This document shows positions 14,448 through 40,869 of a DNA stretch of 64,000 nucleotides, in pieces; position 1 is the first letter of the stretch; each line of letters opens with the position of its first letter. The notes below the pieces were generated by a model. The model saw only the letters and a list, made by a program, of their open reading frames with translations, was not told the DNA's origin and made no database searches. Both the position numbers and the translations under genes were made by a program. The DNA is from Rhodococcus sp. 06-462-5 (GTDB taxonomy: Bacteria; Actinomycetota; Actinomycetes; Mycobacteriales; Mycobacteriaceae), in NCBI RefSeq assembly GCF_002258315.1, contig NZ_NOYD01000018.1:186001-250000 (forward strand), written 5' to 3'.

Positions 14448-14615
14448 TTCGTGTAGGTTCAAGAATGCCTTCCAAGATTCGATGTGTCAAGCGTCATACG
14501 CGTGTAGGAGCGTTGTGCAGCGCACAGCCGTATCGGCATCCGCGCGACGAACTTCATCGGCGACCGGCTACAACTGAAGGTGCTGCACCAACGACATGAG
14601 AGAAGAGGCAGTTCA

Positions 14616-15446
14616 GTGGCTGAACGCGGACAGGGACCGGACTTCATCGAAGCGCTGGCCCGAGGGCTGCACGTGCTCCGGATCTTCTCGGCCGATAAGC
14701 CGGTGATGTCGTTGACCGAGGTCGCCGCTGGTGCCGAGCTGGCACGGCCGACAGCCCGGCGGATACTGCTCACGCTCGAGGAGCTCGGCTACGTCAGATC
14801 CGGCCACGCCGGCTACACCCTGACCCCGCGGGTGCTCGAACTCGGAATGGCGTACATCGGTGCCCTCAACCTCTGGGACATGGCCAGACCCCACCTCGAA
14901 GAATTGGTGGCCTTCACCGGCGAATCGTCTTCGATGGCTCAGCTCGACGGCTCCGACATCGTGTATGTCGCCCGCGTGGCGGTGCCCAAGCTCATCTCGC
15001 TTCGAGTCGACATCGGAACCCGATTTCCCGCGATGGTGACCTCCCAAGGGCGGGCCCTTCTCTCGGCGATGGACCGGGGTTCGGTACACGAGCGCCTGTC
15101 CGAGCCAACCCGCTCAGGGCTCGCTGCGAAAGTGTTCACGACCGAGCAGATCGACGAGATACTCGACGAAACAGCGCAGCGCGGTTGGGCGCTGGCCGAT
15201 CAGGATCTGGCACCGGGCGTCCGCTCGATCGCGGTACCGGTACACGACGGCCGTGGAGTCGCACGCGCAGCCATGAACATCACCGTCCACGCCGCAGAAA
15301 CCAGCGTCGGCACTCTCGAGGAGACCTACCTACCGAAGCTTCTGTCTGCTGCCGCCCAGACATCAGCCGACTGGAGCGCATGGCAGAACCGCCCGATCGA
15401 ACCCGCGCCCCGCGGCACGTCGATCGACCCACAATCGCGTCCCTGA
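14616..15446 (+). CDS. IclR-family transcriptional regulator (PcaR/PobR-like)
   Basis: A 276-residue regulator. An N-terminal winged HTH (SLTEVAAGAELARPTARRIL, about residues 32-51) precedes an IclR effector domain with MAQLDGSDIVYVAR, TSQGRALLSAM and GVRSIAVPV. Members with the early FIEALARGLHVLRIF segment usually control protocatechuate or other aromatic acid pathways. GTG 14616 is chosen because AGAAGAGG lies just upstream and the upstream in-frame codons are atypical. It is divergent from the catabolic operon and is the obvious candidate to control it, more so since the PucR gene is broken. Confidence 0.85.
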   Translation: MAERGQGPDFIEALARGLHVLRIFSADKPVMSLTEVAAGAELARPTARRILLTLEELGYVRSGHAGYTLTPRVLELGMAYIGALNLWDMARPHLEELVAFTGESSSMAQLDGSDIVYVARVAVPKLISLRVDIGTRFPAMVTSQGRALLSAMDRGSVHERLSEPTRSGLAAKVFTTEQIDEILDETAQRGWALADQDLAPGVRSIAVPVHDGRGVARAAMNITVHAAETSVGTLEETYLPKLLSAAAQTSADWSAWQNRPIEPAPRGTSIDPQSRP

Positions 15447-15521: not shown

Positions 15522-15970
15522 TGGATGCCTGGCTTGGAGCTGCGGCGGCTGGTATCGCGGTCTCTGCCTATGGTCGCGATGATGCCGTCGTGATGGGTGT
15601 CAGTGCGGCCCGGTTGCACGGGGCGATTCCGCGGGCGTTAGCGACTGCTGTGGTGGCTGTCCCGACGCGCCACGATCCGATTCGGTTGGCGGATCGTGAG
15701 GCGGTGATTCGGTTCGTCGTTCGCGACATGGCACGTCTGGATGCGGAGCGCATCGATACCGAGTTGGGTGCGGTGCTGGTGACTACTGCGAAGCAGACGG
15801 TGTTTGATCTGGCGATGTGTCCGGGGCTCGGTGACGCCTAGGGTGAGGCGCGGCCCGCTGTGGAGCAGTTGAATCGGAAGTGCGACCGAGGCGTTTTGGC
15901 GGAGATCGCTGGGGCTCAGAAGATGACAACGACTGTATTGCGGCTGCAGGCTCGGTTGGGGCAAAAGTAG
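15522..15970 (+). pseudogene. AbiEi-type antitoxin relic (copy 1)
   Basis: Similar throughout to the copy at 23.4 kb. Residues such as DDAVVMGVSAARLHGAIPRA and PTRHDPIRLADR are near-identical in the two. This copy lacks the first 65 or so codons and has lost one base near 15535 relative to copy 2. It carries an in-frame TAG at 15839-15841, after which the frame stays readable (AEIAGAQKMTT...) to TAG 15968-15970. AbiEi proteins are winged-helix antitoxins of type IV toxin-antitoxin systems. With no N-terminal DNA-binding part and a nonsense codon it is dead. The toxin remnant follows immediately. Confidence 0.75.
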
Positions 15971-16228: not shown

Positions 16229-16570
16229 TCAGTGTAACGCGCGGTAAACGGTTCTGAACTCTTCAAGCTCTGCGACCCGTACAGCAACTTCGACCCAAGT
16301 CTCTTCGAGGTCGTTGTCTGTCAGCGTTCGCAGTGTTCGCGCTGCGTCGACGGATTTTGGAGACTCGACACCCCGAGGAGTTGCGGACAAGATGCAAGAT
16401 GTGATTGTTGCAAGGCTCTTAAATGCCGAGTATTCGGCAAGATCTGCCGCCCACCAATTTAATGGTCGGTCATTTTCTATGGCTTTCCTGAGCTGCTGAA
16501 ACGCCTGCCGTGTCGCAGCTAAGGCGCTGACCTCATCGGCGGTCAGAGACCGCTCGGCGGACACCTTCAC
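16229..16570 (-). CDS. Small uncharacterised protein, last gene of the HEPN-helicase operon
   Basis: A 113-residue soluble, mostly helical protein (KVSAERSLTADEVSAL at the start, a WWAADLAEYSAF patch in the middle). I do not recognise a family. The GTG start follows the one-TM gene stop by 6 bases, so it is translated in the same unit. It could be an accessory or immunity component of the proposed defence operon. Nothing in the sequence shows an enzyme motif. Confidence 0.5.
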   Translation of the reverse strand: MKVSAERSLTADEVSALAATRQAFQQLRKAIENDRPLNWWAADLAEYSAFKSLATITSCILSATPRGVESPKSVDAARTLRTLTDNDLEETWVEVAVRVAELEEFRTVYRALH

Positions 16571-16576
16571 CAGTAA

Positions 16577-16930
16577 TTACTCGATGTTTCCATCAATCTG
16601 CGCGGCGCGGTTTTGGCATTGCCAAACAAGATCGTTGTTCTTCTGGCCTCTTAGCGACCCTGAATGCAACGAGTCCCATGACTTCCACGTCGAGAAGAAA
16701 TCACCGTACAAACGGTGAAACTCGTTAACGGCTTGTAAATCAAACTCGCGTAGCTTCTTGATTCTGTCCCACCTATCTGTGATTCGGGCCGTCACAAACC
16801 ATCCTGCGATCAAGGTTAGGCAAGCCGTTGCAGGAGCGACGATGAAAGGCGCGATCGCAGTGATGGTCACACCAGCACTGTATAGGTCGCGAAACCCTGG
16901 TTGCCGGTGTGGCGGGTCTGTCGCAGGCAT
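16577..16930 (-). CDS. Small protein with one membrane segment
   Basis: A 117-residue protein: a short N-terminal stretch, one hydrophobic segment from about residue 19 to 43 (AGVTITAIAPFIVAPA and onward), then a charged cytoplasmic-looking domain with RITDRWDRIKKLREFD. Family unknown. ATG 16930 is preferred over the 182-codon frame because the upstream part overlaps the helicase gene end and has shadow-like composition. It sits between the helicase and the 113-residue protein, and its single TM anchor could tether the system to the membrane. Confidence 0.5.
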   Translation of the reverse strand: MPATDPPHRQPGFRDLYSAGVTITAIAPFIVAPATACLTLIAGWFVTARITDRWDRIKKLREFDLQAVNEFHRLYGDFFSTWKSWDSLHSGSLRGQKNNDLVWQCQNRAAQIDGNIE

Positions 16931-17048
16931 CCGGCTGCATCGACAGCGCGACTTGGAACTGACCTGTTTCGATGTAGGCCGCCCGCTAAGTTCGTGCTGT
17001 CGCCATTGGGACTGAATAGGGGAGCCCGGTCCGCAAACTCCGGCGGTT

Positions 17049-20000
17049 CTAACCGGTCTCCCAGCTCCAGCCCGGCAACGTCTCCAGTTTGGCTGATCGC
17101 TCGGCTTTGATGTTCTCCCGCCCACGCCACTGCTCCCGGACCCACGCGCCTAGTTTGACGCCCTTTTCCACGTGGTCATCCGGGGGCTTGATGTGACCTT
17201 CACGCGCTACGTATTGCTCGAGCATCTCGAATTTTTGGTTCCAGATGTGATCGCTTTTTGTGCCCCAGAACCAACCGGGTATGGCTTCCAACTGAGCTTG
17301 TCTGTCAGAGTCGAGTCTTGTGTGTTCGCGTCGACGGAGCCTGGCCCATTGACCGATCTTCAGACCGTCCTCGACGAAGTCGACAGGAACGCTCGTATGG
17401 CCTTCCCTTCGTGCGTAAGACCGCAGCAGCTCGAGGTGTTGCGTCCATGAGTCGTCGAGGGTGTTCCAGCTCCAGCCAGGAACGGCCTCCAAGCGCTGGC
17501 GTCGGTCCTCGGTCATCTTGGCCCAATTGCCCCGTTGCTCTCCGACCCAACCGCCCAGATTGACCCCGTCGGCAATGTGGCCGCGCGAGACCCGCGTGTG
17601 TCCGTGCTGTTCCGCGTAAGAGACCAGCGCGGCGTACGCACGATCCCAAGCATCCGTGTACGGGTCCCACGACCATCCTGGAACCGCTTCCAGGTGCTCC
17701 CGACGTTCCTGAACAATGCTGGCGCGGTTATTCCTTTGTGCTAGAACCCAACCGCCGAGTTGCACGCCGTCTTCCTTGAATCCCTGCGGTACTAGCGCAT
17801 GGCCCTCCCGCCGTTGATACTGCCTGAGCAGTTCGAGCTTCTGCTGCCACATCGCGGCTCGCGAATCCCACACCCAACCGGGCAGCGATTGTAGGCGATC
17901 TAGATCGCTCGCAGACAGATTTCTCTGATTGCCTCGTTGGACGGTGACCCACTTACCGAGCCGAAAGCCGTTCTCCACGTGCGTGTTAGGAACGCGAGCA
18001 TGGCCTTCTCGCGCGACGAAGGCCGTAAGAAATTTGTAGCCGCGGTCCCACTTCTCGGCCTGTGGTGCCCACGACCATCCCGGCAGTGCCTCGAGGAGTC
18101 GGACCCGCTCCGACGATAAGTCGTCGCGGTTGGTGCGCTGCGCGGCCACCCACTGCCCCAGTCTGACACCGTCCTCCACCAGCCGCGGCGACGGCTGAGC
18201 GCGGCCCATTCGTGCGGCAAACGCCTTCAGTGCTTGGTAGTTCCGCGCCCAGGTGTCCTCGCGGGTATCCCACACCCAACCAGCGAGCGCTTCGAGTTCC
18301 CGTGTCCTTTCCTCTGACAACCGACCACGCTTGTGCAGACCACGCTGAGTCGCGACCCAGCTCCGGAGGTTCGAGTCGCCGACCGCGTAGGGAAATGGAA
18401 CGTCGGCGTGACCATGTTCGGCTACGAACTGCTCCATGAGTTGGATCCACGTACTCCATTGATCTGCCAGTACGTCCCATGCCCACCCGGGAAGTCGATC
18501 CAGCGCGGACCGCCTGTCATCGCTGAGGGTCTTGTTGGTCAGCGCGATCCTTTGGACGCTTGCCCATTGCCCGAGTGCGTATCCGTCGACGACGTAGTCG
18601 ACGGCCACTCTTGAGGTGCCCTTGTCTGCGGCGTATTGCTCCAGCATCCCGTACCAGAAATGCCAGGGGGCACTAGTCTTCTCGATCAAACGAACATCGA
18701 ACGCGTCGACGAATGCCTTCCCGACGGTGTGCGCCACGTCCAGGTGGATCTTGTCCGGAATGCGTGCGCGCCCACCTGTGCGGCCGAGTTCACGGCGCAT
18801 TTCGTCGATCTGCTGCGCCATCTGTTCGTCGTGAGAGCGCAGAGCAATAACGACACGCCAGACAGACTTGAACGATGAATCTTTGAGCGCGGTTTCGGGA
18901 TCTGCGGCGGTGTCGATGAATACGGGAATGACAATGGTTCCGACGGTTTTGTTCTCGGCCAGCCGAATTGCCCGCCCGACGGCCTGAACGATGTCTACCT
19001 CCGAGCCCCTCGGGTCGATAAAGGCGATGCCGTCGAGGGTGGGGACGTCGACACCCTCGCCGAGACACCGCGCGTTCGTCAGCAAGCCGCGCTCGTCGTC
19101 ATCGAGGTGACGAAGACGTTGAAGGCGGACGTGTCGCTCACCGGAAGACATTTCACCGGAAGCGAACCCGGTCCACAATGCTCCCGGCGGCCGCTGCTCT
19201 TCAGGCATCCATTCGAGGATCTCGGGCATTTCGGCGGCAAATCGCCTGGCGCGGAGCACACGGGAGTGGAAGCTGATCACGCGGCGAAGGTCGTATTTTC
19301 GCATCGCTTTCGCAAGTCCGATCTGGCTGGCCAGGGTTCGCGCGTCGGTGCTCTGTTCCTCTCGCCGGACCAGAACGCCGTTGGTCGCCCACTCACGAAA
19401 TGTCGAGTTGTCGACCCCGACGACAGTGACTTGGTAATCAGTGAGTAGTCCGCGTCGAATGGCTTCTCCGTAACTCAGACGGTGGAACACCTCCCCGAAT
19501 TTCGTGGCGTCGTCCATCGACGCGACTTCCATCTCCGAGCCACGCGCCGCCGTCAGCACCCGTCCGGTGTAGTAGCGCGGTGTCGCCGTCATGAACAGCC
19601 GCCGGCGGGCTGCGATGGCGTTCGAGTCGAGAATCGTTGCGAATACGGTCGATTCGTCGCCCGCGACACGGTGACTCTCGTCCGCGATGGCCAGGTCGAA
19701 ATGCGGGACTTGTCCGAGGGTGAATGCTTTCGCGATCTGCGGCGAGGACTGATACGTCGAAAACACCACACGTGGTCCACTGCGTTGAAGGAACTCGGCG
19801 ATCTCGGCGGGGTCGTTCTGGACTGGGAGGCACAGTTCGCTGGTGGACGTCAAGGCTGCGTCGTCCTGGGTGACGGTTTCATCGGAGCAGACTGGTAGCG
19901 CCTCGAACGGTTCGGTCGCGTTCGTCCTCCATACCGCCATCGTCTGCTTCAGCAGGGACAAGGACGGCAACAGAACCAATGTTCGCTGCGCGTGAAGTTC

Positions 20001-20648
20001 TTGCTTGATGAACAGAGACGTGAGTGTCTTTCCTGTACCGCACGCCATGACGAGCTGACCACGATCGGCGTTCTGGAAGCCGTCCACGACGTTGTCGACC
20101 GCTTCGGTCTGGTGATCGCGCGGTAGGGCCGGCTGCGGTGATGGGATGGGATGTAGGAGGTCCGGGGACTCCGCCCAGTCGATGTCGGCAGTTTGGAGGT
20201 CGGCAAGGCCGATCAAGCCAACCGGTTTCTCCTGGGGCTCGATAGTTCTCCGCGCGACGTGGTGTATCCGGTCAGTGGTTGCGATGAGGAGGCGATAGTG
20301 GAACCGCCTCCTGGACGACTCGGACAGGAACTTGTCGACGTCGTTCTTTGTGACGGCGCGATCTGAGGCATATGCCTTCGCCTGTACCGCCCAGAGTTTT
20401 CCTTCGTTGTCTTCGACCACGAGGTCGATACCGGAGTCGCTGCCCCATCTGTGCTCCCAGTCGTCCCAGAGCCAGACATTGCGAACGGTTTGTCGGTAGT
20501 ACGCGTCGTTCTCGAGGTACCACTTGCAGATGCGTTCGAACTGCCTGCCCCGGATGTGGTTGTCCTTGGAGAGGTTGCCGTACAGGGTGGCGAATGTGCC
20601 CATCCTGGAGACGTTAACCGTCCTTGCCGACAGGCTCGTTTCCTTCAC
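17049..20648 (-). CDS. Mrr-like nuclease fused to SF2 helicase with eight helicase-associated repeats
   Basis: A 1199-residue protein. Residues 30-150 look like a PD-(D/E)xK restriction domain (GIDLVV with Asp75, QAK at 89-91). An SF2 helicase follows: CGTGKT 203-208, DESH 323-326, TATPR 354-358, QAVGRAIRL 555-563. From about 662 to the end there are eight tandem repeats of 66-70 residues, each with a W near its start, EGH/EHGH-like and LGxWVxxQR segments, and ending PGWxW; this is the helicase-associated (HA) domain. Such proteins are restriction-type or DNA-translocating defence factors. Start uncertain: GTG 20648, or ATG 20603 at MGTFATLYGN. Downstream small genes appear cotranscribed. Confidence 0.8.
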   Translation of the reverse strand: MKETSLSARTVNVSRMGTFATLYGNLSKDNHIRGRQFERICKWYLENDAYYRQTVRNVWLWDDWEHRWGSDSGIDLVVEDNEGKLWAVQAKAYASDRAVTKNDVDKFLSESSRRRFHYRLLIATTDRIHHVARRTIEPQEKPVGLIGLADLQTADIDWAESPDLLHPIPSPQPALPRDHQTEAVDNVVDGFQNADRGQLVMACGTGKTLTSLFIKQELHAQRTLVLLPSLSLLKQTMAVWRTNATEPFEALPVCSDETVTQDDAALTSTSELCLPVQNDPAEIAEFLQRSGPRVVFSTYQSSPQIAKAFTLGQVPHFDLAIADESHRVAGDESTVFATILDSNAIAARRRLFMTATPRYYTGRVLTAARGSEMEVASMDDATKFGEVFHRLSYGEAIRRGLLTDYQVTVVGVDNSTFREWATNGVLVRREEQSTDARTLASQIGLAKAMRKYDLRRVISFHSRVLRARRFAAEMPEILEWMPEEQRPPGALWTGFASGEMSSGERHVRLQRLRHLDDDERGLLTNARCLGEGVDVPTLDGIAFIDPRGSEVDIVQAVGRAIRLAENKTVGTIVIPVFIDTAADPETALKDSSFKSVWRVVIALRSHDEQMAQQIDEMRRELGRTGGRARIPDKIHLDVAHTVGKAFVDAFDVRLIEKTSAPWHFWYGMLEQYAADKGTSRVAVDYVVDGYALGQWASVQRIALTNKTLSDDRRSALDRLPGWAWDVLADQWSTWIQLMEQFVAEHGHADVPFPYAVGDSNLRSWVATQRGLHKRGRLSEERTRELEALAGWVWDTREDTWARNYQALKAFAARMGRAQPSPRLVEDGVRLGQWVAAQRTNRDDLSSERVRLLEALPGWSWAPQAEKWDRGYKFLTAFVAREGHARVPNTHVENGFRLGKWVTVQRGNQRNLSASDLDRLQSLPGWVWDSRAAMWQQKLELLRQYQRREGHALVPQGFKEDGVQLGGWVLAQRNNRASIVQERREHLEAVPGWSWDPYTDAWDRAYAALVSYAEQHGHTRVSRGHIADGVNLGGWVGEQRGNWAKMTEDRRQRLEAVPGWSWNTLDDSWTQHLELLRSYARREGHTSVPVDFVEDGLKIGQWARLRRREHTRLDSDRQAQLEAIPGWFWGTKSDHIWNQKFEMLEQYVAREGHIKPPDDHVEKGVKLGAWVREQWRGRENIKAERSAKLETLPGWSWETG

Positions 20649-20921
20649 GGGTTTGACCCGAAGCTAGAGCTCGCGATCAGGCGCGCACCTGCGCCTATAC
20701 GAACCCACTTTGGCGCACGTGAGCAAGTCCGGTGGGCGTGACAGCTTTGTAGGTGTGTCGCAGGAATCGCAGCGAACAGTGGACGGCCGCAAGTACGAGC
20801 GCCCGCGCCATGAAAGCCAATGCCGAAGTAGTATTTTACGACTAAGCCGCGCTCCGCGGCATCGTCTCCGCACGCATGCACGCATGCACGCACGGATCGT
20901 GATCGATCGCGACCGGAGTCG

Positions 20922-22808
20922 TCATTCATGTGTCGGTTGCGTTTTATTCGCGGCCAGGACCACGATTCGCAGGGCGATGTGGATGAGTACCGCGGCGACA
21001 CCGGAGTCGACGTTTTTCACGTAGCCGTGTGCGAGAAGGTTTCGGGTATTCCAGCCGGCTGGGTGATTGCATATGGCGTTGAACATCCGACGATCGTCTT
21101 CGGGGACGTCGTACTCGGTGCAGAAAAGGTTCAACATGACTCCCAGGCCGACGTATTGGCCTGGCGACTGTCCCTGTTGCAGTCGATATATGCCTTGGTC
21201 GGCGGCAAGTACTGCAGTGCGGAGCATTGACTCGATCACTGGGGTTGTGGTGTACGCGGCCGCTTCCGGGTCGCCCGACCAGAAGCGAAACAGTGCGCGG
21301 CACAACCGAGTCGAGGTGTCGCTGGTCATCGCGGGACCAATGTTGAGCACATGGTGCAGGTTCTCGGCCGGCGGCGTGCCGAAGCGGTGGACGATCTCAT
21401 GGAGCGCGGCGGCGAAGATTGGTGCCCAATGACCGAGGAGCTGGGTTTCCCACTTCACCATGTCCATGTCGAGACGTTCCGCGTCGGTCGTTGGGGCCCA
21501 GAGTGGCAAACCCTCTGGAGTCTGCAGTTGAGTCGAGAATAGGGCGGTCAGAGGAGCGAGGGCGTATTGCTCTCGGACGCGGCGCTCGGTGGTGGCGATG
21601 GGTCCAGTGACTGTGGTGAACGATGCGAACGCCGACAGCGCCTCCGACCAGTTTGCTGAGGGTTCGTCGGGCGCATCTCCGGCTTCGGCGGTCGGTCTCG
21701 TCGATGTGTCGGTGCCGAGAACTGCGTCGACGCACGAGTCCCACTCTTCCTGGAACTGACGCGACGATGCGGTGAGGTGCATCATTTCCAGGTCGAGCTC
21801 TCGGACCTGTTGGAGGCGGACGGTGGCTTCGTTGCGAAGCGCTGGGTCATTTGAGCGCTCTGCCAGTTCGACCGCCTGGTGGAGGCGGGTGGCTTTCATG
21901 ATGTTGTTGGTTTCGCTGTCCGCCCGGTCGAGGAAGGTGTGGACTCGGCGTCGCCAGATTTCGGCGCGCTCCGAAGGTGACGTGGCGGATTCGAGGGCGA
22001 GGTTGAGGATGCGGTCTCGTTGAGTCGGGTCGGGCCACTTCTTCTCGGCTGTGGCCAACAAGCGCGTAGTGGTTCCCGGACTGCCTTCTCCAGTGAGCGT
22101 GATCAGCGCGCCGACCACGGACCCGAACGGTGGATCGTCCTGTCCGAGGAGCCGCTCGACGAGGACGCAGAGCTGGTCGATGGACGTACTCAATGTTGTG
22201 TCGTCGTTGATAGCCCGACTGAGCCGGATAGCAGCCCGGCAATCCGCAACGGCGTCGTAGTTGCGCGCTTCTAGTGCGGACGCGTCGATGTAGGCGGCGA
22301 TTGCGGCACGCGCGTGGTTGAGTCTGTCCCCGCTGCCGACCTGGAAGAGCAAGTGGTGAAGTCGTGCTCGGGTCGGGGCGTGCTGGACGAGTCCTGCGAG
22401 ACCTCTCCACGTGGCAACGATGGTTGAGTCCACTGACCTGGTGTCGGGTGGGTTGGTGCTGTCGGGTCCGCGGAACTCGGGGAGCAATCGAACGCGTTCG
22501 CTTCCCGACGACCTATCGAAATCAAGTTGGTACCGCAGCGACCACCATGCAGCGCGGTGCTCCAAGGTGAGGTGGTTGCCGCTGTCGGTGTCATCGCTCT
22601 CATCGTCGACCATACGGTGGTCGACGAAGACATCACGAGCAGCGGCGTATCGGCGGTACTCAGAATCGTGTTCCGCCACGCTATCGAGGGCGTCCGCCGC
22701 TTGATGAAGCTTCTCGTCGTCGGGTTTGGATGACTCCTCTGATTCAGCATTCAGCTGGTTAACTTTTCGATCCTCGCCAGGATCGGGCGGGTGGGGATCT
22801 GTGACCAT
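20922..22808 (-). CDS. Large HEPN-motif protein (DUF7380/DUF4209-like)
   Basis: A 628-residue mostly helical protein. An N-terminal charged region is followed by a long repeat-like helical body (about 150-450). The C-terminal domain contains RNLLAHG at about 589-595, the R-x4-H motif of HEPN ribonucleases, followed by a hydrophobic helix. I associate this layout with DUF4209/DUF7380 proteins, many found in defence islands. It lies upstream of the nuclease-helicase on the same strand with a 273-base gap, so the pair may be one system in which the helicase senses foreign DNA and the HEPN domain cuts RNA; that is inference. ATG 22808 is chosen; upstream codons look like non-coding frame. Confidence 0.6.
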   Translation of the reverse strand: MVTDPHPPDPGEDRKVNQLNAESEESSKPDDEKLHQAADALDSVAEHDSEYRRYAAARDVFVDHRMVDDESDDTDSGNHLTLEHRAAWWSLRYQLDFDRSSGSERVRLLPEFRGPDSTNPPDTRSVDSTIVATWRGLAGLVQHAPTRARLHHLLFQVGSGDRLNHARAAIAAYIDASALEARNYDAVADCRAAIRLSRAINDDTTLSTSIDQLCVLVERLLGQDDPPFGSVVGALITLTGEGSPGTTTRLLATAEKKWPDPTQRDRILNLALESATSPSERAEIWRRRVHTFLDRADSETNNIMKATRLHQAVELAERSNDPALRNEATVRLQQVRELDLEMMHLTASSRQFQEEWDSCVDAVLGTDTSTRPTAEAGDAPDEPSANWSEALSAFASFTTVTGPIATTERRVREQYALAPLTALFSTQLQTPEGLPLWAPTTDAERLDMDMVKWETQLLGHWAPIFAAALHEIVHRFGTPPAENLHHVLNIGPAMTSDTSTRLCRALFRFWSGDPEAAAYTTTPVIESMLRTAVLAADQGIYRLQQGQSPGQYVGLGVMLNLFCTEYDVPEDDRRMFNAICNHPAGWNTRNLLAHGYVKNVDSGVAAVLIHIALRIVVLAANKTQPTHE

Positions 22809-22915: not shown

Positions 22916-23088
22916 TCGGTGTCACGAGCGTGTCACATGTCGGGACTTACGACGGTGGATTCGGGTGGTGCTGGTTGGACGATTGACGCAGGTCAGAGTA
23001 TCTGTGATGGTTCCATGCGGACGTATCTGGTTGTCTCGCAACATACTTGTAAGCGAGCGGTCAACGGTTCAATCCCGTTAGGAGGCTC
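22916..23088 (+). repeat. 173-bp direct repeat, copy A
   Basis: Aligns without gaps to 33984-34156 with 14 mismatches by hand count (about 92% identity); the last 70 bases are identical. The repeat ends exactly at the 3' end of a tRNA-like sequence, after which the two copies diverge. Confidence 0.85.
22998..23086 (+). tRNA. tRNA-Thr(UGU)-like sequence, degenerate copy
   Basis: The 3' half has a perfect T arm (AACGG-TTCAATC-CCGTT) and an anticodon-type loop CTTGTAA flanked by CTCGC/GCGAG, but six extra bases (AACATA) enlarge the loop. The D arm is not canonical. The acceptor pairing is poor in this copy and there is no encoded CCA. Most likely a pseudo-tRNA or mobile-element relic rather than a working tRNA. 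Confidence 0.35.
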
Positions 23089-23402
23089 TTTCGGACGGCT
23101 CTGACCAGCGAAAACGGTTGGGGTCGTCGTTTTTTGGCCTATCTCGGCCGGTCGTTTCTTGGGTGAGCCCGGTTCGTCCACCTGGGTTTATGTGTCGTTT
23201 GTGACCTGGGGATTTGCCGGTTCGGCGGCTCGATCCGGCGTTCGGTGTCACAGAATGTCACAACTCGTTGCTAACTCATCGGTGAGCATTCGTGTGGATG
23301 TAGGTGGATGCGTACGGACTGGGCGGGAGGTTGCCGGACCGGATTGCAGTGTCGGTTTTGTAGGCCTGGAGCATACGTATTCGACACTTGATGGAGGTGT
23401 CT
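23089..23402. other. Intergenic region after repeat copy A; no gene seen
   Basis: A weak stem (CCAGC/GTTGG) followed by a T6 run near 23130-23136 could terminate a transcript of the tRNA-like element. The rest, up to the AbiEi relic, contains no supported gene. Confidence 0.35.
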
Positions 23403-24061
23403 GTGACGACAAGCGATGTTCGACGCCGTCAGGCCGGGTTAGCTCCGGAGTTCGCTCCGCTTCCGATGCGGACGGTGCGAGCCGCCTCGGCGGCCGATGT
23501 CTACGCACACCCGCGCGCTGAGCTTTCGAGGCTGACGGACTTGGGTCTGATGCATCGGGTGGCGACGGGCTTCTTCGTGGCGGTGCCAGACGATCGGGTT
23601 GGGACCGAGTGGATGCCTGGATTCGAGGCTGCGGCGACAGGTATCGCGGTTGCGGCCTACAGCGCCGACGATGCCGTCGTGATGGGTGTCAGCGCGGTCC
23701 GGTCGCATGGCGTGATTCCGCGGGCGTTGGCGACGGCTGTGGTGGCTGTGCCGACGCGCCACGATCCGATTCGGTTGGCGGATCGGCAGGCGGTGGTTCG
23801 GTTCGTCGTGCGCGACACGGCACGTCTGGATGCGGAGCGCATCGATACCGAGTTGGGAGCGGTGCTGGTGACTACTGCGGAGCAGGCGGTGTTGGATCTG
23901 GTGAAGCGCCCTAGGCTCGGTGACGTCGAGGGATGCGGTGTGGCCTGCAGTGCTGCAGTTGTACAGACGTTGCGACGCAGATGTTCTGGGGGAGATCGCT
24001 GAGGCTCAGAAGATGCGAATGACGTTGATGCGGTTGCGCGATCGGTTGGGGAGCAGCGGTG
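23403..24061 (+). pseudogene. AbiEi-type antitoxin with frameshift (copy 2)
   Basis: The frame starts at GTG 23403 behind a strong GGAGG site and encodes a winged-helix-type N terminus (AELSRLTDLGLMHRVATGFF) and the AbiEi middle domain. It ends prematurely at 24002. Comparison with copy 1 shows one extra G in the GGG run at 23930-23932. Removing it restores EDAVWPAVLQLYRRCDADVL and on to a stop overlapping the toxin start. AbiEi represses its operon and neutralises an AbiEii nucleotidyltransferase; here both partners are broken. Without the alignment it would look like a 200-residue intact gene. Confidence 0.75.
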
Positions 24062-24100
24062 AACCCCGATGAATTGGCTTCGTTCTCTGGGCAATTCGAT
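24059..24100 (+). pseudogene. AbiEii toxin start remnant (copy 2)
   Basis: GTG 24059 begins VNPDELASFSGQF, matching VNLDELASVATQF of the copy at 15970, and homology ends there. Only about 14 codons survive. A 45-codon ORF in another frame (24069-24206) follows, but it has no good ribosome site. Confidence 0.45.
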
Positions 24101-24332
24101 TGGCGAAGCACTCGAAGTCCATGTTCGCGAACGACAGGTTGTTCTCGCACTCGACATCTCGGTGGGGATGATGCGAAAGATACTGCCGTGCAGTTGTTCC
24201 GGATAGTAGGTCCCGGTGTAGGCGACGATGGGCGTCTTCGGCCCGATCACGAACTCCGAACTACGGTGCGCAGGCTTTGCTGAACTTCTACGGAACTGTG
24301 CTGATGCTCCACATTCGATCGTGGTGACTCAA

Positions 24333-24659
24333 TCAGGAATCGGCCATGCTGCGCCGAATGTCGAGAATGTTGTTGATGTCGACGACGTTGGCTTCCTGCA
24401 ACAGGGGATTTGCGCAGCTGTCACCACGCACGGGGGGTGCAGCGAAGTCGACAGGAGAACACCCGAAGATGTCGCACAGTGCGGTCAACACTTTCAGGGA
24501 CACGAGCATCGGACGCTGCGCGACGAGTCTGCGCACCTGAGGTTCGCTCAGATGGACTCCGCGGTCGGCCAGATGCGGTAGCAAGTCGGTGCTGTCTCGC
24601 ATTCCGTGGGCATCCATGAAGTCGGCCAAGCACGAGTTCTGTGCGCCTGTCTGGATCAT
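24333..24659 (-). CDS. XRE-type helix-turn-helix regulator
   Basis: A 108-residue protein with a Cro/C1-like HTH (residues about 20-72: LLPHLADRGVHLSEPQVRRL, then LCDIFGCSPVDF). Close relatives occur in actinobacteria beside tandem integrase genes of Tn554-like elements; here no integrase is present, so it may be a survivor of a decayed element. ATG 24659 is chosen because GAAAGG lies 5 bases upstream; the longer frame has atypical sequence. Targets unknown. Confidence 0.65.
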   Translation of the reverse strand: MIQTGAQNSCLADFMDAHGMRDSTDLLPHLADRGVHLSEPQVRRLVAQRPMLVSLKVLTALCDIFGCSPVDFAAPPVRGDSCANPLLQEANVVDINNILDIRRSMADS

Positions 24660-24790
24660 CGCTGCCTTTCGTTGGGGTGTTGTGGTCGCTGGCACCGTGT
24701 CGTCGAGCACGAGGAAGCGGACTGCACGATGATCAGGTCCGGGGAGGGAAACGATCATCGTGCAGCCCGATCTCTCGGATTACGAACCGA

Positions 24791-24889
24791 TCAGAAGAAC
24801 AGACCCTTGATCGCGTAGGGAATGACACCGATCACGAGGGCTCCGAGGCCGCCAGCGAGAGTCAGGGTGGTGGTGAGGGGATTGAACAT
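24791..24889 (-). CDS. 32-residue single-membrane-segment peptide
   Basis: ATG 24889 has an excellent ribosome site (AAGGAG, 6 bases before). The product starts MFNPLTTTLTLAGGLGALV and is almost entirely one hydrophobic helix with Lys near the end. It lies 74 bases downstream of the flavin oxidase gene on the same strand, so it is probably the last gene of that operon. Peptides like this can be membrane regulators, type I toxins or bacteriocin-like; nothing decides between them here. Confidence 0.55.
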   Translation of the reverse strand: MFNPLTTTLTLAGGLGALVIGVIPYAIKGLFF

Positions 24890-24963
24890 GTTCTTCTCCT
24901 TGTGAAGTCGCCCATCGCGGATCGATGGGACGTGATGTGGCGCTCGGGTCCGGACGTTCGAGT

Positions 24964-26661
24964 TCAGAGACCCAACCGGCGGGTGAGCGACGTGGTGAAC
25001 AGGTTGTGCGGGTCGAGATCGGCCAAGGTTTTGGCCGCAGTCGACCACTGCGGATACACGTCAGGGATCTCGTGGCGAAGCGCGTTGGGGTCGGTCCAGG
25101 CACCTCCGTCTCCGTGGCCCCACCGCTTCGCCCATTCGGGTCTAACAATTCCGAGTTCGGCTGGAAAAGACCGAAAGAAGCGCTGCTCGAGATCGGCGTA
25201 GAAGTCCGCCTGCCCAGGGGTACCCGGCAAAGTCAGCGTGTCGAGCCACACCGCTGTATCGAAGTCGGTGCGTCCGGGCACGGGCGTAGCGGGGGACAGG
25301 GCGGGAGCTTTGTCGTCTGGGTATCTAGAATCCAACCCGGTAACCCTGATTTCCACACAGCTGTTGATTGGGTATTCGCCGCGTGCGGCGTACTCGTCGA
25401 GCATCGTGCTGATCACTTCGGTGAACTCGTGAACAACATGCTGGACATTGTCTCGACGGGTGATCACCGCATGGCTGGCCGCTGTGACGCGTAGCGTTGT
25501 GGGTCTGACGAAGTGAATGAAATCTTTTGCTGGACCCCACATGTCGCGAGCACCCGTCAGGGTCAGGCCTGCATCGGTAGCAGCGATGACGGCGTTCCCG
25601 AATGCCGGTGCGAGTTCGGTATGGCCTTCGATGATCCGGCCGAGTATCTGCGGAATCGGATCGGGCAGGTTGTCGGCGAAGGGAAAATTGAATGGGCCTG
25701 TGGTCTGGCGTGATTCGGCCGGCCGAGTGGAAGAGATGGACCACTGTTGAATCCATGGTCGATCGGTGAAGGTGTACCAGATGATCCCGACTCGACCTGC
25801 GTCGTCGAGCATCGCGGCCAGCGACCGCGGGCCTGCTGCGTTGGGTGCTGCGAACAGTTCCCGAGTCGGGATGTCCGTGAAGGTCCGACACCGCAGGTTG
25901 TGTGTCGGCACTGTGGACAGACGCACTCGGGTGACCAACGCGCGTCCCAAGTGCACCAGCAAAGAGGAACATTCGGGATCGGAACGGGTGAAGCTCTTTT
26001 CGGCGTATGTGCCGGTGCGACTGTCGAATACGACGGCCGAGACAGTTTCGACGAGGTCGCTTATCGAACCGAACGGCAACGACCGGTTACCTTGTTCGGC
26101 GGTGGAAGCGACGGCGCTGCCGTGCCCACCCACCGCGAGGACTCCTCCGACGGTCACGTCTCCCGGAGCCGGTGCGGAAAGCACTGCGCGACCGTGTATA
26201 TGGAGATAGGCGAGTAGGTCCTGCATGGAGGCGCCGGCCTCGACGTCGACAACGGTGTCGTCCACCATCGCCATCGATTTCAAGGCCGTCATGTCCAGAA
26301 GAAGCACTCGCGCCGACGAGGGCGTACCCGAATCGACGACCAACGGTGACCAATTGTGCCGGAAACCATGTGGGCGAACCGTATACGAGTTGATCCGAGC
26401 CCACTCAGCTACCTTCACTGCAGCGTCGGCCGAGTTTATAGCTACTGTCCACAGGTCCTCGGTGAGGATGACACCGTCCCAATTGCGAAACTGCGCCTTG
26501 CGCAGGGACAGTCCTGCGGGGAAGCCGGGAAGCACGGTCTCTGCCCGTACCGGCGCGGAGAAGCCGGCGAACAGTAGACCCGTCACGGCAGCGGTGCCAG
26601 TGAGAAAAGACCGGCGATCGAAAGTGCTATCGGTCGCTCGGCGCGAGTGCTTCGGGCTCAT
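24964..26661 (-). CDS. Tat-exported FAD oxidase of the cholesterol-oxidase type II (VAO) family
   Basis: A 565-residue flavoprotein. The N terminus carries a Tat signal (RRSFLTG with R16-R17, hydrophobic core, VRA cleavage region). A VAO-type FAD-binding domain follows; His102 in GFRHNWSPL is positioned for covalent FAD linkage as in Brevibacterium sterolicum cholesterol oxidase II. GDVTVGGVLAVGGHG is the FAD-binding glycine region. The C-terminal part matches the cholesterol-oxidase substrate-binding domain. Sterol or another bulky alcohol is the likely substrate, oxidised outside the membrane with release of H2O2. Start ATG 26661 overlaps the stop of the secreted-protein gene (ATGA), so the two are coupled. 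Confidence 0.8.
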   Translation of the reverse strand: MSPKHSRRATDSTFDRRSFLTGTAAVTGLLFAGFSAPVRAETVLPGFPAGLSLRKAQFRNWDGVILTEDLWTVAINSADAAVKVAEWARINSYTVRPHGFRHNWSPLVVDSGTPSSARVLLLDMTALKSMAMVDDTVVDVEAGASMQDLLAYLHIHGRAVLSAPAPGDVTVGGVLAVGGHGSAVASTAEQGNRSLPFGSISDLVETVSAVVFDSRTGTYAEKSFTRSDPECSSLLVHLGRALVTRVRLSTVPTHNLRCRTFTDIPTRELFAAPNAAGPRSLAAMLDDAGRVGIIWYTFTDRPWIQQWSISSTRPAESRQTTGPFNFPFADNLPDPIPQILGRIIEGHTELAPAFGNAVIAATDAGLTLTGARDMWGPAKDFIHFVRPTTLRVTAASHAVITRRDNVQHVVHEFTEVISTMLDEYAARGEYPINSCVEIRVTGLDSRYPDDKAPALSPATPVPGRTDFDTAVWLDTLTLPGTPGQADFYADLEQRFFRSFPAELGIVRPEWAKRWGHGDGGAWTDPNALRHEIPDVYPQWSTAAKTLADLDPHNLFTTSLTRRLGL

Positions 26662-27098
26662 TTCCGGGTGGAGGAGCAGAAGGTGATGATGTCCTTCACC
26701 GTCGCGGGCTGGTGGAAGGCAACATCGTTGACGGCGTACACGGGTGCTTGCAGGACGTCGACGAACAATCCCTCGAGCACCTGATACGGGGAGGCGGAGA
26801 ACGTGAGGATGGACGTGGCGAGAGCCGTGTTGCGCTTGATCGTGGCCTTGATGTCGTTCCCGTGGTCTCTGAAATTCGTGTTCAACCAACTGAAGGTTGC
26901 GGTCGGTCCGCTGCACACCGGAATCAGTGCCAGAGCTTCGTCATGGCTCGGTGCCCAGACGCCGTTTCCGGTCGGCGCGGCCTGCGTCGTGGGTCCGGTC
27001 GTTGTCGCAGGTGCTGCCGAAGCGAGCGGCGACGCAATAGTTGCTGCTGTGATTGCCACGGCGGCGGCACCGATGACGGTTTTGATCGAACGCTTCAT
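26658..27098 (-). CDS. Secreted protein paired with the flavin oxidase
   Basis: A 146-residue protein with a clear signal peptide (MKRSIKTVIGAAAVAITAA, predicted cleavage after SAAP). The mature part of about 115 residues has two Cys (IPVCSG and ITFCSS) that could form a disulfide. No family recognised. ATG 27098 is preferred because the signal peptide starts there. Overlap with the oxidase gene suggests a partner, for example a small exported subunit or chaperone. Confidence 0.65.
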   Translation of the reverse strand: MKRSIKTVIGAAAVAITAATIASPLASAAPATTTGPTTQAAPTGNGVWAPSHDEALALIPVCSGPTATFSWLNTNFRDHGNDIKATIKRNTALATSILTFSASPYQVLEGLFVDVLQAPVYAVNDVAFHQPATVKDIITFCSSTRK

Positions 27099-27239
27099 GT
27101 GAGCTCCTGAATCGAAGAGATTGAAACCAACCCGGGAAACCGGCTTGGTCCCTGTATTCAGACACAATGGCTAACTTTCAGCAACCTCAGGAGACGGTCG
27201 ATATTTGCTCCATTTCACGGACCGCACCCCTTCGGTCTC

Positions 27240-27254
27240 TACCGGGAACCGGTA
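27240..27254. promoter_or_regulatory. Perfect palindrome upstream of the secreted protein/oxidase operon
   Basis: TACCGG-GAA-CCGGTA, 142 bases before the operon start, in a 700-base region between divergent transcription units (27099-27797). It is a candidate operator for an unknown regulator; no other gene or RNA is recognised in this gap. Confidence 0.4.
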
Positions 27255-27797
27255 AAGCGGCAGCATCAGAGGCGAATCCCCGCTTGTCTCGCGGTGCGGT
27301 CCCGTTCTGCAGTGTCTTACGTCTCAGTGCCCATCGGTGCTAGAAAGTAACTAGCTTCCGGAGGGGTGCGACTTGCCGGGTGTGACAAGCCCTCGAGCTG
27401 GGTTGTGGTCTGTCGCACATTAGAGGGGCCTCTGAGGGGCTGATTCGTGTGGAACAATTGCTACTGAACATGTAAGTCTGCGGCGCGGGCGCTTGCGATC
27501 GGGCCCGATCGACCCACGGCGTTTGCGCGAATCGAGCCTCCGATGCTCGCTCGTTGCGCGTTCTGGTTCGATGTGTCGACAGCCTGCGCCACGTGCAGTG
27601 GGCCTACTGCACGTCACCGAATCATGTTGCAGCGCAGTGCTGCTGATTCGGATTCCTGCCGGGAGAAGGAATTTCGGGCGCGTTGGTGTTTGGAATCACA
27701 GCACTGACGAGTAACGCGACATTTTCGAGCAGCGACACATTTTGTATTGCCGGATGTCACATCTCGGTTCAATTACCACCAATTTTATGGAGGGGTC

Positions 27798-27860
27798 ATG
27801 TACTGCGTAAACGAGATCGGCACGTGGTCCACCTCCGCATGGGGTCGGTGCTTGCCATGA
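27798..27860 (+). CDS. 20-codon leader peptide overlapping the next gene
   Basis: ATG 27798 follows GGAGG by four bases and encodes MYCVNEIGTWSTSAWGRCLP. Its TGA (27858-27860) overlaps the ATG of the secreted repeat protein (ATGA). Upstream ORFs placed this way usually couple or regulate translation of the main gene. Whether the peptide itself matters is unknown. Confidence 0.4.
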   Translation: MYCVNEIGTWSTSAWGRCLP

Positions 27861-28663
27861 CCTCGGTGGGACGAAAAGTTGGCCTGGCGATGTGCTGTGC
27901 GGCCCTGACCTCGGGTGTCTTCGCCATAGCTGTGGCAGGTCAGACGTCGGCGGCGAGCACCATCGAAATATGCATCGGACGGCCAGGAGCATGTGGGGGC
28001 TCAGCACCGACGACGACCACTGTGGAGCCGACGACGACCACTGTCGAGCCGACCACGACCACTGTCGAGCCGACCACGGCGACCACTGTGGAGCCGACGA
28101 CGACCACTGTGGAGCCGACGACGACCACTGTGGAGCCGACGACGACCACTGTCGAGCCGACCACGGCGACCACTGTGGAGCCGGCCACGGCGACCGGCAC
28201 CTCGGAGCCGGCATCGGACGACCCGCGGAAGACCGCCGACGTCGAGCCACCGCTTGTCGATGGTGAGCCGCGTCTTGCTCCCCCCGACTCGGTGCCCGCG
28301 GTCGTCGAGCCGACGATGCCCTCGCCTGATCCGCGGTCCGCGGAGACTTCGACCTCCGACGTTGCCGCTACGAACTCACCCATGCCTCGTGCGCCGGGAC
28401 CCCGTCTCCTATCGACCGAAACCACTACTTCTCCGTCTCCGAGGCCGGGATCGATCGACGGCGGCGGCGGACCCGATGACGGGGATCAGGATGCCGAGTT
28501 GTATTCCGCGTCGAGCGATCTCGATTCGGTAGCTCCTCTGTCGGTCGTCGGTGGTGTCGCAGGGCTCACCTTGGCGGGGGCAGGGGCAGGCGTTATCACC
28601 CTTCGCGGTGCTCGTGCCACCGAGGCGCGACGGTCGGCCGCACGTTCAGAGTTCTTCCCATGA
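27857..28663 (+). CDS. Secreted Thr-Val-Glu-Pro repeat protein with C-terminal membrane anchor
   Basis: A 268-residue protein: signal peptide (GRKVGLAMCCAALTSG onward, cleavage near TSA), then a low-complexity stalk of eight TTxTVEP units, a Pro/Ser/Thr-rich linker, and a C-terminal hydrophobic helix (VVGGVAGLTLAGAGAGVI) followed by Arg-rich residues. This is the plan of a cell-envelope protein spanning the actinobacterial wall, with no LPXTG motif. ATG 27857 gives the best signal peptide and overlaps the leader peptide. The next gene overlaps its stop (ATGA). Function unknown; repeat length may vary between strains. Confidence 0.6.
   Translation: MTSVGRKVGLAMCCAALTSGVFAIAVAGQTSAASTIEICIGRPGACGGSAPTTTTVEPTTTTVEPTTTTVEPTTATTVEPTTTTVEPTTTTVEPTTTTVEPTTATTVEPATATGTSEPASDDPRKTADVEPPLVDGEPRLAPPDSVPAVVEPTMPSPDPRSAETSTSDVAATNSPMPRAPGPRLLSTETTTSPSPRPGSIDGGGGPDDGDQDAELYSASSDLDSVAPLSVVGGVAGLTLAGAGAGVITLRGARATEARRSAARSEFFP
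28010..28183 (+). repeat. Two-tier tandem repeat in the stalk gene
   Basis: Basic unit 21 bases (encoding TTTTVEP) three times plus one 24-base unit (TTATTVEP), the 87-base block being present twice. Copies differ by a few C/G changes. In-frame and prone to slippage. Confidence 0.8.
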
Positions 28664-29151
28664 TCCGATCGCACCGCCGCGTGTCTGCCGCAGTCGATGT
28701 CGTGTTCGATATTGCTGCTGCCACGACCGAATTCGACCTGGAGGATATCGTCGCCGCCGTCGCCGAAGAGCGAGGCCGGTCGATCGAAGTCGAGATGGCC
28801 GCGTTGCCTCCAGGTGTGTGTGGACAACGACGTGCATACCCCGACCATGACGTCATAGTTCTGGCCCCGGATTTACCGAACTACGAACGGACGCTGGCAC
28901 ACGAGCTCGGACACATCGTGTTTCGGCACGAGGGCACGCCGGTAGAGCGGTCGTTGCATGTCGTCAGTGAGGAACTGATCGCCTTCATGCTCAGCGAGCG
29001 CAGCTTGGCGTCCACGGTCGTGGACGGGGCGGACGAGTTGGCCGAATGGGAGGCCGAGACTTTTGCCGGTCAACTGCTGCAGCGCCTGCGGCGTATGAAT
29101 ACCCGCGGTACACCGCTGTCGGTACTGCGTTTCGATCAGGCCCTGGGGTGA
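28660..29151 (+). CDS. ImmA/IrrE-type zinc metallopeptidase (M78-like)
   Basis: A 163-residue protein with the zinc motif HELGH in LAHELGHIVFRHEG (about residues 87-100) and a downstream EAETFA segment that can supply the third ligand, as in ImmA/IrrE proteins that cleave phage or stress repressors. ATG overlaps the preceding gene stop (ATGA), and the MAB_1171c-type gene follows after 1 base. A convergent EspR/XRE regulator two genes away is a plausible substrate. No signal peptide, so cytoplasmic. Confidence 0.75.
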   Translation: MIRSHRRVSAAVDVVFDIAAATTEFDLEDIVAAVAEERGRSIEVEMAALPPGVCGQRRAYPDHDVIVLAPDLPNYERTLAHELGHIVFRHEGTPVERSLHVVSEELIAFMLSERSLASTVVDGADELAEWEAETFAGQLLQRLRRMNTRGTPLSVLRFDQALG

Positions 29152-29152
29152 C

Positions 29153-30070
29153 ATGGACTGGCTAGCAGCGTTGTTGGTGTGGATCGCAGTCGGTGCGCGC
29201 ATCGGCCGAGCTGTGGTGCGAAGCGCCAGTACCGTGCGCGTGTCCATCGTGCTCGCCGTCGGCTTCCTCGCGTTGGCACAGACGCTGCTCGTCGATGACG
29301 TTGCGCGGCTTCTGGAGCCGTATGTCGATGTGCCGATCGTGATCGGTCTGTGTTGGATCGGCGTCGCCGCAGCGTCCGCGGCTATCACCCTGACTACTCG
29401 GCCGACGCTTGATGCGGTACAACGGCGTCGGGCGATCGCAGCGGTCGTGTGCACGGGGGTGGCTGCCGGTATCGCCTCCGTCGCGTTTCCCACTGTCGCG
29501 TGGACCTTCGTCCTTCTCACGCTGCCCCTGATCATCGTCACAGGTGTCGGAATGGTCGACCGAACGCCGTTGGGCCGTGCTGTCGCTCTGTTCTGTATCG
29601 GCTTCTGTGCACCGGGCTTCGTCGCCGTATCTGTCGTCTTCGGATCCACCCCCCGACACTCCATTCTCACTGCAGGTGCGTTGCTGATGGCTGCGGCCGC
29701 GGTGTGGGTTCTCGCGACGAGCTGGGTTCGCGCGCGGATCCTTTTGTGGCGCATCAACAACCTTCATCGCACCCTCACGCGTAGGTTCCCGGAAGTACTG
29801 GGTGAAAAACGGTCGGGGGCACCAACGGTGTTACGCGCATCGGACCACGTCTCGGAGATCATGGACGCGTTGTACCTTCAGGTCGGTGCCGGGCAATTCG
29901 ACGATGGAGTCGCGGCGCCAGCAGATTCCGGTGCCCGCGCCGGGCGTGTAGCCCAGACGGTTCGGGATCCGCTTTCGGACCCAATCATGGGCGGCCACTG
30001 GATCGCCGTGCCGAGCGGCGTTTCACTTGCTCGGTGGGTGACGATGATCGCCTTCGAATTCGGGCGCTGA
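29153..30070 (+). CDS. MAB_1171c-family membrane protein (putative transporter)
   Basis: A 305-residue protein with about six or seven hydrophobic helices in the first 200 residues, then a soluble C-terminal domain starting near WRINNLHRTLTRRFPEVLG. This matches the mycolata MAB_1171c family, usually next to an ImmA/IrrE peptidase and an XRE regulator, as here. Transport function is only a database label for the family. It starts 1 base after the metallopeptidase stop, so it is in the same operon. Confidence 0.65.
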   Translation: MDWLAALLVWIAVGARIGRAVVRSASTVRVSIVLAVGFLALAQTLLVDDVARLLEPYVDVPIVIGLCWIGVAAASAAITLTTRPTLDAVQRRRAIAAVVCTGVAAGIASVAFPTVAWTFVLLTLPLIIVTGVGMVDRTPLGRAVALFCIGFCAPGFVAVSVVFGSTPRHSILTAGALLMAAAAVWVLATSWVRARILLWRINNLHRTLTRRFPEVLGEKRSGAPTVLRASDHVSEIMDALYLQVGAGQFDDGVAAPADSGARAGRVAQTVRDPLSDPIMGGHWIAVPSGVSLARWVTMIAFEFGR

Positions 30071-30093
30071 CACAGAATTCGTCGAACGAGAAA

Positions 30094-30519
30094 TCAGGCG
30101 GAGCCGTCCGGCGGAACTGCGGGCAATCCCTCGCTTGCTCTCAGCTTCTCCGCCATTGCGGCCAACAGGTTCTGTGATTCCTCGGACAGGTCGAACGCCC
30201 GTTGGGACAGTCGTCGTAAGCCGTAGCCCTGAAGTTGCGAGAGCACTTCGAGATCACGATCCACCGTTGCCTCGTAGACGGGATCGAAGAAGTAGTCGGG
30301 CTTGACTTTGAAGAAGCGCGCAAGCGCGGCGACGGTCTCGTTCGAGGGATTGGTTCGATGACCGGATCTCAATTGGGAGATGTAGGGCTTCGAGATCGAG
30401 TGACCTGCAGCCGCTAGGGCTTCGGCAACATCGGCATTGGTGTACGGCTTACGTCCCGCAGGATGTACCGATCCGAACAGTTTGTTCAGACGTTCTGCGA
30501 AAGACCCCTGCGTCGGCAC
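30094..30519 (-). CDS. EspR-like XRE transcriptional regulator
   Basis: A 141-residue protein close in layout to mycobacterial EspR: FAERLNKLFGSVHPAGR at the start, HTH with SKPYISQLRSGHRTNPS, then ALARFFKVKPDYF and a C-terminal helical dimerisation region (RRLSQRAFDLSEESQ). EspR is a nucleoid-associated activator of ESX-1 secretion and envelope genes. GTG 30519 is preferred because GAGGAGG lies 8 bases upstream and homology begins there; the frame could be extended 38 codons but that part is atypical. It is convergent with the peptidase/membrane operon and may regulate it. Confidence 0.75.
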   Translation of the reverse strand: MPTQGSFAERLNKLFGSVHPAGRKPYTNADVAEALAAAGHSISKPYISQLRSGHRTNPSNETVAALARFFKVKPDYFFDPVYEATVDRDLEVLSQLQGYGLRRLSQRAFDLSEESQNLLAAMAEKLRASEGLPAVPPDGSA

Positions 30520-30702
30520 TGCCCAAGCCCTCCTCGGTGGTGGTGTGAGCCTCGGGATAACCGACCGATAGCTCCGAGTCACGATGTTACCTTTTCGAGA
30601 CCGACAGTTCGCGCCTCGCGGGGCGGAAGTCACTCTCCTACCCCGGATTGTCCTGCCGTGGAGGGCAGAGTGATGCTATTGCCGACTCGGATGTCTCCAC
30701 CG

Positions 30703-30924: not shown

Positions 30925-30951
30925 CGATTCATCGTTCCCACACTCGGTACT

Positions 30952-33983: not shown

Positions 33984-34156
33984 TCGGTGTCACGAGCGTG
34001 TCACATGCCGGTACTGACGCCGGTGGATTCGGATGGTCCCGCCTGGACGATCGACGCAGGTCAGAGCCTCTGTGGTGGTTCCATGTGGACGTATCTGGTT
34101 GTCTCGCAACATACTTGTAAGCGAGCGGTCAACGGTTCAATCCCGTTAGGAGGCTC
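33984..34156 (+). repeat. 173-bp direct repeat, copy B
   Basis: Gapless match to 22916-23088 (14 mismatches by hand count, all in the first 103 bases). The repeat covers about 80 bases 5' of the tRNA-like part as well, so it is more than a duplicated tRNA end. Confidence 0.85.
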
Positions 34157-34158
34157 CA
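34066..34158 (+). tRNA. tRNA-Thr(UGU)-like gene or pseudo-tRNA
   Basis: Acceptor strands GCCTCTG and AGGAGGC pair at six of seven positions (one G-U, one mismatch) and are followed by T and an encoded CCA. The T arm AACGG-TTCAATC-CCGTT is perfect. CTCGC/GCGAG could form the anticodon stem with anticodon TGT at 34116-34118, but the loop is 13 rather than 7 bases. The D arm cannot be drawn in standard form. A terminator follows at once, so this copy may be transcribed. Length 93 is too long for a normal tRNA-Thr. Confidence 0.45.
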
Positions 34159-40855: not shown

Positions 40856-40869
40856 GGCGACATCTCCTC

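Follow-up and report, generated by a model that had tools for sequence, protein, structure and literature searches.

The block at positions 16229 to 22808 of the window, by which we mean the whole stretch of 64,000 nucleotides analysed, is best read as a candidate set of two separable defence-type genes, one for a HEPN protein and one for an Mrr-SF2-HA helicase, together with a decaying orphan gene, all three being island cargo. We give this reading, and with it the independence of the HEPN and helicase genes, a probability of roughly 0.6. The host is a soil bacterium, a Rhodococcus/Rhodococcoides strain with a genome of 5.76 Mb, and the window lies within its contig 60 (C60). Family membership and genomic context, as judged from sequence comparison, favour a putative defence role of both the HEPN protein and the Mrr-helicase. 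Since the pairing of these two genes is rare elsewhere, they are probably neighbours and not one new system.

Gene content of the block

All three genes are on the minus strand. The HEPN gene comes first and the Mrr-SF2-HA gene second; the last one, hereafter the TM gene, encodes a single membrane stretch predicted by eye. The HEPN frame opens at 22925 and encodes 628 aa from an ATG at 22808 (20922..22808; identified by its ORF, Pfam matches below cut-off and PADLOC). The Mrr-SF2-HA frame opens with a GTG at 20648, which gives 1199 aa; counted from Met16, the start in relatives, the gene covers 17049..20603 (ORF, Pfam, LlaBIII match). The TM gene (16229..16870) is a single frame split by an in-frame TAA at 16577-16579, with the same frame on either side. 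In one related genome, G016, this frame is open throughout, including the stop position, whereas in a second one, G035, it is broken too, hence in two of the three genomes that contain the gene. The preliminary description had listed four co-directional genes, the last two being a "one-TM protein" and a "small protein". The minus-strand frames are indeed present at these positions, but the last two are halves of one frame, of which G016 holds an intact copy; the gene count is three, with one gene interrupted in the window, and the four-gene operon considered as a candidate is rejected on this ground. The gaps between the genes, 273 bp from the HEPN stop to the helicase GTG (318 bp to Met16) and 178 bp from the helicase stop to the TM frame, are evidence against a compact operon. 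No sigma-70-like site was found in the block and terminators are not in excess there, both of which are a weak guide in an actinomycete. The TM gene occurs in 3 of 201 relatives and in a single one of 348 genomes of the order, that one being the strain itself; plasmids gave no match to it at an E-value of 1e-5.

By Pfam the 1199-aa protein consists of Mrr_cat_2, ResIII and Helicase_C plus eight HA stretches, which bears out the restriction-like nuclease, SF2 motor and eight HA repeats described before. The nuclease domain spans residues 47-160 (20169..20510, minus strand) and has D75 and Q89-A-K91. The catalytic residues named earlier were all recovered, with Asp75 in GIDLV, Lys91 in VQAKA and the Walker lysine as K207, and the helicase motifs DESH and QAVGRAIR are intact as well. 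The eight tandem HA repeats, delimited with a profile of our own, take up residues 656-1196 (17061..18683, minus strand) in units of 67-69 residues; the AlphaFold model, with a pLDDT of 93 on three repeats, gives each of them three helices. The type ISP enzyme LlaBIII (4xqk) aligns with residues 31-618 at an E-value of 7.7e-91 and LlaGI with residues 172-618, and motor and nuclease roles are supported because of this homology. ISP_coupler and N6_Mtase gave no match in the window helicase even at an E-value of 1. Relatives of about 40% identity within the genus cover the same nuclease-motor part, and the sole one scanned (L033) combines Mrr_cat_2 and the SF2 core with ISP_coupler and N6_Mtase, which makes it a type ISP enzyme. 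The best reading of the large protein is therefore, as far as its domains indicate, a type-ISP-like restriction motor that lacks a methylase.

Purifying selection has acted on the Mrr, motor and HA parts of the helicase alike, as estimated from substitution rates: against a 73%-identical homologue from Antrihabitans (L050), dN is 0.18 and dS, which is near saturation, 1.2, with a dN of 0.14 for the Mrr part, 0.13 for the motor and 0.23 for the HA part. The array of eight HA repeats is ordinary for the family and was wrongly considered unusually long, since seven relatives have 12, 8, 6, 9, 8, 8 and 5 HA stretches according to Pfam, a range of 5-12; our own profile gives 12, 8, 6, 9 and 8 in five of these seven. 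Two loci hold tandem Mrr-SF2-HA gene pairs (L049:8096-15089 and L103:7669-14740), the L049 pair with six HA stretches in one gene and nine in the other. Broken helicase remnants were encountered elsewhere in the genus and family (L051, which equals L154, and L155, L156, L157, L158), so that the gene seems to have been gained and lost.

The HEPN protein has a DUF7380-like N part and a C part of the DUF4209/C6orf70 type. The RNLLAHG motif reported before is present at residues 589-595 of the 628 (21024..21044, minus strand), and RNxxxHG is invariant in 13 of 13 proteins, i.e. the window protein and twelve homologues from genomes and plasmids. The DUF4209 match has an E-value of 6.6e-4 and, at 20.1 bits against a Pfam cut-off of 22.3, falls below it, as does DUF7380 with an E-value of 8.1e-4. 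PADLOC gave a divergent match to the candidate profile PDC-S39 (E 1.1e-10, in two stretches), the profile being matched in part only, with positions 98-189 of 615 as the best stretch; the seven homologues scanned all match PDC-S39 too. A structure model from the single sequence, with a pLDDT of 38, is useless for judging the fold. With its Rx4-6H motif the protein would belong to the HEPN superfamily and, within it, to the C6orf70/DUF4209 family. The available part of the survey by Anantharaman and co-workers (PMC3710099) has the C6orf70 family overlapping DUF4209 and retaining the HEPN motif, predicts RNase activity for the human representative, and lists the family as occurring in restriction-modification (R-M) related operons. 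In the accessible portions of PMC12839542 and PMC10853773 the terms DUF4209, helicase-associated and type ISP are all absent. Relatives of the HEPN protein are rare, with 5 among 201 related genomes and 5 among 348 genomes of the order, the strain's own genome being included in both counts, and the PDC-S39 profile matches in 11 genomes when 296 from the class are searched and in one among 14 controls.

Co-occurrence and neighbours of the two families

The helicase was compared across 14 other Mrr-SF2-HA loci (L047, L048, L049, L050, L064, L065, L066, L102-L107 and L163). L049 and L103 are the tandem pairs mentioned above and L104 is frame-shifted; L047, L049, L104 and L106 are shortened on one side by contig ends; and L065, L066 and L163 lie on plasmids of two Rhodococcus strains. 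L070 and L071, which have no Mrr match, and the duplicates L108 and L016 were left out. On plasmids, the Mrr part matched 137 records, and seven loci among the 60 listed were opened (H49-H53, H55, H59), one of which (L163) has HA repeats; the helicase matched 781 records, and five among the 40 listed were opened (H4, H5, H6, H8, H18). Further Mrr-SF2-HA loci beyond the 14 may exist.

A HEPN protein of the window's family stands beside the helicase in one of these 14 loci, and there as a relic identified by profile search. It lies on the Rhodococcus qingshengii plasmid RQCS_2 (L064), about 0.7 kb upstream of a helicase 52% identical to that of the window and on the same strand. A tblastn search for the HEPN protein at an E-value of 1e-3 found nothing in the helicase loci it covered, L163 not being among them, and the statement drawn from it, that no other helicase has a HEPN gene nearby, was overturned by this relic. 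Nor do we take the relic as proof of a conserved pair: the gene directly ahead of it encodes a P-loop protein, and a 60% homologue of this protein precedes the HEPN gene of another locus, L113. The HEPN protein closest to the relic is, however, that of L068, and that of L113 gives no match to it. No HEPN gene was found at the helicase remnants L051 (= L154) and L155-L158. In the other direction, the HA profile matched one of 14 HEPN loci, L067 on a plasmid of Streptomyces xanthophaeus, where the HA-domain gene ends about 6.7 kb upstream of the HEPN gene with seven annotated genes between; tblastn with the helicase at an E-value of 1e-10, run against 12 of the 14, gave no match. The TM gene was found in none of the 14 other helicase loci. 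Co-occurrence, which the preliminary description had proposed as a check across genomes, is thus mostly wanting: in these 14 loci no TM gene was found beside the helicase, and a HEPN gene once, as a relic. These counts and the merging of genes three and four leave a single new four-gene system without support.

Could the HEPN and helicase genes nevertheless form one two-gene system, in which the restriction motor restrains or releases the HEPN RNase according to the logic of PrrC/PrrI, so that DNA would be cut first and RNA second? Strand and order of both genes are indeed shared by three genomes, G016 differing from the window at 11 of the 5487 coding bases, and the decayed HEPN gene of RQCS_2 repeats this strand and order. 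Moreover, the immediate neighbours of HEPN relatives include large P-loop proteins (L113, by eye, and L114, a weak AAA_16 match) and a weak SF1-type match (L111), and a general proposal of this kind has been published (PMC3710099, as far as available). We consider such a system unlikely, however, since 13 of the 14 other helicase loci are without such a HEPN gene, 13 of the 14 HEPN loci are without HA repeats (L067 being the distant exception), the two genes of the window are 273 or 318 bp apart, and the RQCS_2 relic may belong to the P-loop protein which it follows. The P-loop proteins of L064 (2989-6978) and L113 (4319-8353) are about 1330-1345 aa long, and each is directly followed by a DUF4209-type HEPN gene, the relic in the case of L064; an NTPase-HEPN pair is possible in these two loci.

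A defence-type profile match beside the helicase was obtained in 5 of the 14 other loci: PglX upstream of the helicase in L048, not directly adjacent; an N6 methylase gene followed after a 56 bp gap by the 73%-identical helicase in Antrihabitans (L050); a PDDEXK-like protein and the P-loop protein, below the Pfam cut-off, in L064; ThiF and multiubiquitin in L103; and an MTES_1575-like nuclease match, below cut-off, in L104. Among the neighbours scanned in the other nine there was none. Genes for a VbhA-type antitoxin and Fic are annotated upstream in L163. The methylase of L050 and the PglX of L048 suggest that the window helicase might belong to an incomplete R-M system as its restriction subunit, the methylase having been lost or acting in trans. 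We regard this as improbable, as a methylase lies directly upstream in one of the 14 loci and PglX farther away in one more, while all three modules are under purifying selection in a lineage that has no adjacent methylase.

SF2-HA proteins are frequent on actinomycete plasmids: of the 781 records matched, a total that includes type ISP enzymes, 395 come from Streptomyces and 37 from Rhodococcus, and relaxase genes are near the helicase in L102 (by eye) and L163. As these proteins are so common on plasmids, part of the wider SF2-HA family may serve plasmid upkeep, and the window protein itself could be a maintenance or replication factor of a mobile element instead of a defence enzyme. For the window helicase we deem that very improbable: its Mrr nuclease motifs are intact, type ISP restriction enzymes are close to it, and chromosomal helicase loci adjoin defence-type genes.

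The neighbours of the HEPN relatives are equally varied. They include a SMODS nucleotidyltransferase (L112), HsdM with a ResIII fragment (L115), a DUF4238 protein (L109) and, within an integrative element, an adjoining integrase recognised by eye (L152); the genes surrounding L116 resemble ordinary housekeeping genes (by eye). Both families thus tend towards settings linked to defence or mobility, where their partners vary.

The probable island and its likely attachment-site repeats

On the plus strand at 22916..23088, next to the block, lies a direct repeat whose final 43 nt (23046-23088) reproduce the 3' end of a tRNA-Thr gene; it is likely an attachment site at the end of the island. A second copy, 92% identical over 173 nt, is found at 33984..34158 with a 45-nt tRNA-Thr match at 34114-34158. 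The intact tRNA-Thr(TGT) gene is at C60:18052-18126, and a tyrosine-integrase-like gene (by eye) adjoins it. These features point to an island of about 191 kb, C60:18052-209088, of which window positions 1-23088 would be the end, with the block at its far end. In G016 one copy of the 42-nt core lies in the tRNA-Thr gene and a second, at a distance of 96.7 kb, next to the block.

The block of the congeners G016 and G035 is 99.75-100% identical to that of the window, with HEPN and helicase frames open in both and, as here, a tRNA-Thr 3'-end copy adjoining it; that of G035 is identical, and that of G016 has the 11 differences in 5487 coding bases of HEPN and helicase given above. Outside the block G016 is 96.6% identical over 3.8 kb (window 37151-40923), against 99.8% within it. 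The left flank (14560-15446) is 100% identical in 3 of 37 genomes of the genus, the next best being 78%. The block is therefore cargo of a tRNA-Thr-integrated element, and these data fit a recent spread on an integrative element.

The surroundings had been described as a region of toxin-antitoxin relics, and AbiEi_1-type antitoxin relics do flank the block on both sides, at window positions 15539-15838 and 23628-23927; their DNA is 88% identical. A second segment of about 11 kb (window 23089-34158) has the same tRNA-Thr-type repeat on both flanks, and in G035 the 23.1-34.1 kb segment is absent at this place. Among its genes are one for a cholesterol-oxidase-type FAD enzyme (24964-26916) and one for a GGDEF protein (30952-31998), and at 27986-28246 there are 21-nt tandem repeats (with 24-nt steps) that encode a Thr/Val/Glu/Pro-rich stretch of the frame 27683-28663.

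Proposed action and comparison with known systems

Given its domains, the helicase most likely is an ATP-driven restriction motor. Its HA array would contact DNA and select the target, the SF2 motor would then translocate using ATP, and the Mrr domain would cut the DNA as type ISP enzymes do. Since no methylase adjoins the helicase, host DNA would be spared by other means, for instance if the enzyme recognises modified or structured targets or DNA ends, or if a mark is placed in trans. The HEPN protein, a putative RNase, would be silent before infection and most likely cleaves RNA upon an infection signal, in what would be an abortive response; each of the two genes may provide protection independently. 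The preliminary description had combined DNA and RNA cutting into one response. Its assignment of both proteins to defence is supported, its candidate new four-gene system is not, and the general logic, in which a HEPN RNase backs up DNA restriction, has already been proposed (PMC3710099, in the part available).

Should the HA array be a recognition module that has replaced the methylase and target-recognition domains, the protein would be a restriction-type enzyme lacking a methylase of its own, and its natural variants with 5 to 12 repeats would permit direct tests of self/foreign discrimination. The interest lies less in the HEPN pairing than in those relatives of type ISP enzymes that have HA repeats and no methylase. 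The pairing contributes a further case, of uncertain meaning, to the HEPN genes already published as neighbours of restriction enzymes. A bolder proposal, speculative and rather doubtful in our estimate, would be that Mrr-SF2-HA proteins form a class of restriction motors that is hitherto uncharacterised and has no methylase, a modular array of 5-12 HA repeats replacing the methylase/recognition end of type ISP enzymes and setting the target by repeat number and sequence, with the motor coupled here to a C6orf70-type HEPN RNase in a two-tier, DNA-then-RNA response, this coupling having arisen at least twice, in the block and, since decayed, on RQCS_2.

Among known systems the type ISP enzymes LlaBIII and LlaGI (for the type see the portions available of PMC4666363, PMC7049714 and PMC4872093) share the Mrr nuclease and SF2 motor with the window helicase. 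They differ from it in having a coupler, an N6-methylase and a recognition domain in the chain, none of which was found in the window helicase; its HA repeats follow the motor, where the methylase/recognition end of LlaBIII would be. On HA-repeat restriction enzymes there was no paper among the matches listed, judged by titles. The HEPN protein resembles PDC-S39 and the C6orf70/DUF4209 family by its RNxxxHG motif and DUF4209-like C part, with DUF4209 below cut-off and PDC-S39 matched partly. PrrC and RloC with their R-M systems, as described in the part of PMC3710099 available, are similar in that a HEPN gene adjoins a restriction-type enzyme; in contrast to them, the window HEPN is a separate protein that has no ABC ATPase part, and its adjacency is not conserved. 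Finally, the giant HEPN-helicase-nuclease proteins of the same source likewise combine an RNase-type HEPN domain with a helicase and a DNase and have no methylase, but they unite an SF1 helicase, Vsr and wHTH in one polypeptide, whereas the window has two genes and an SF2 motor.
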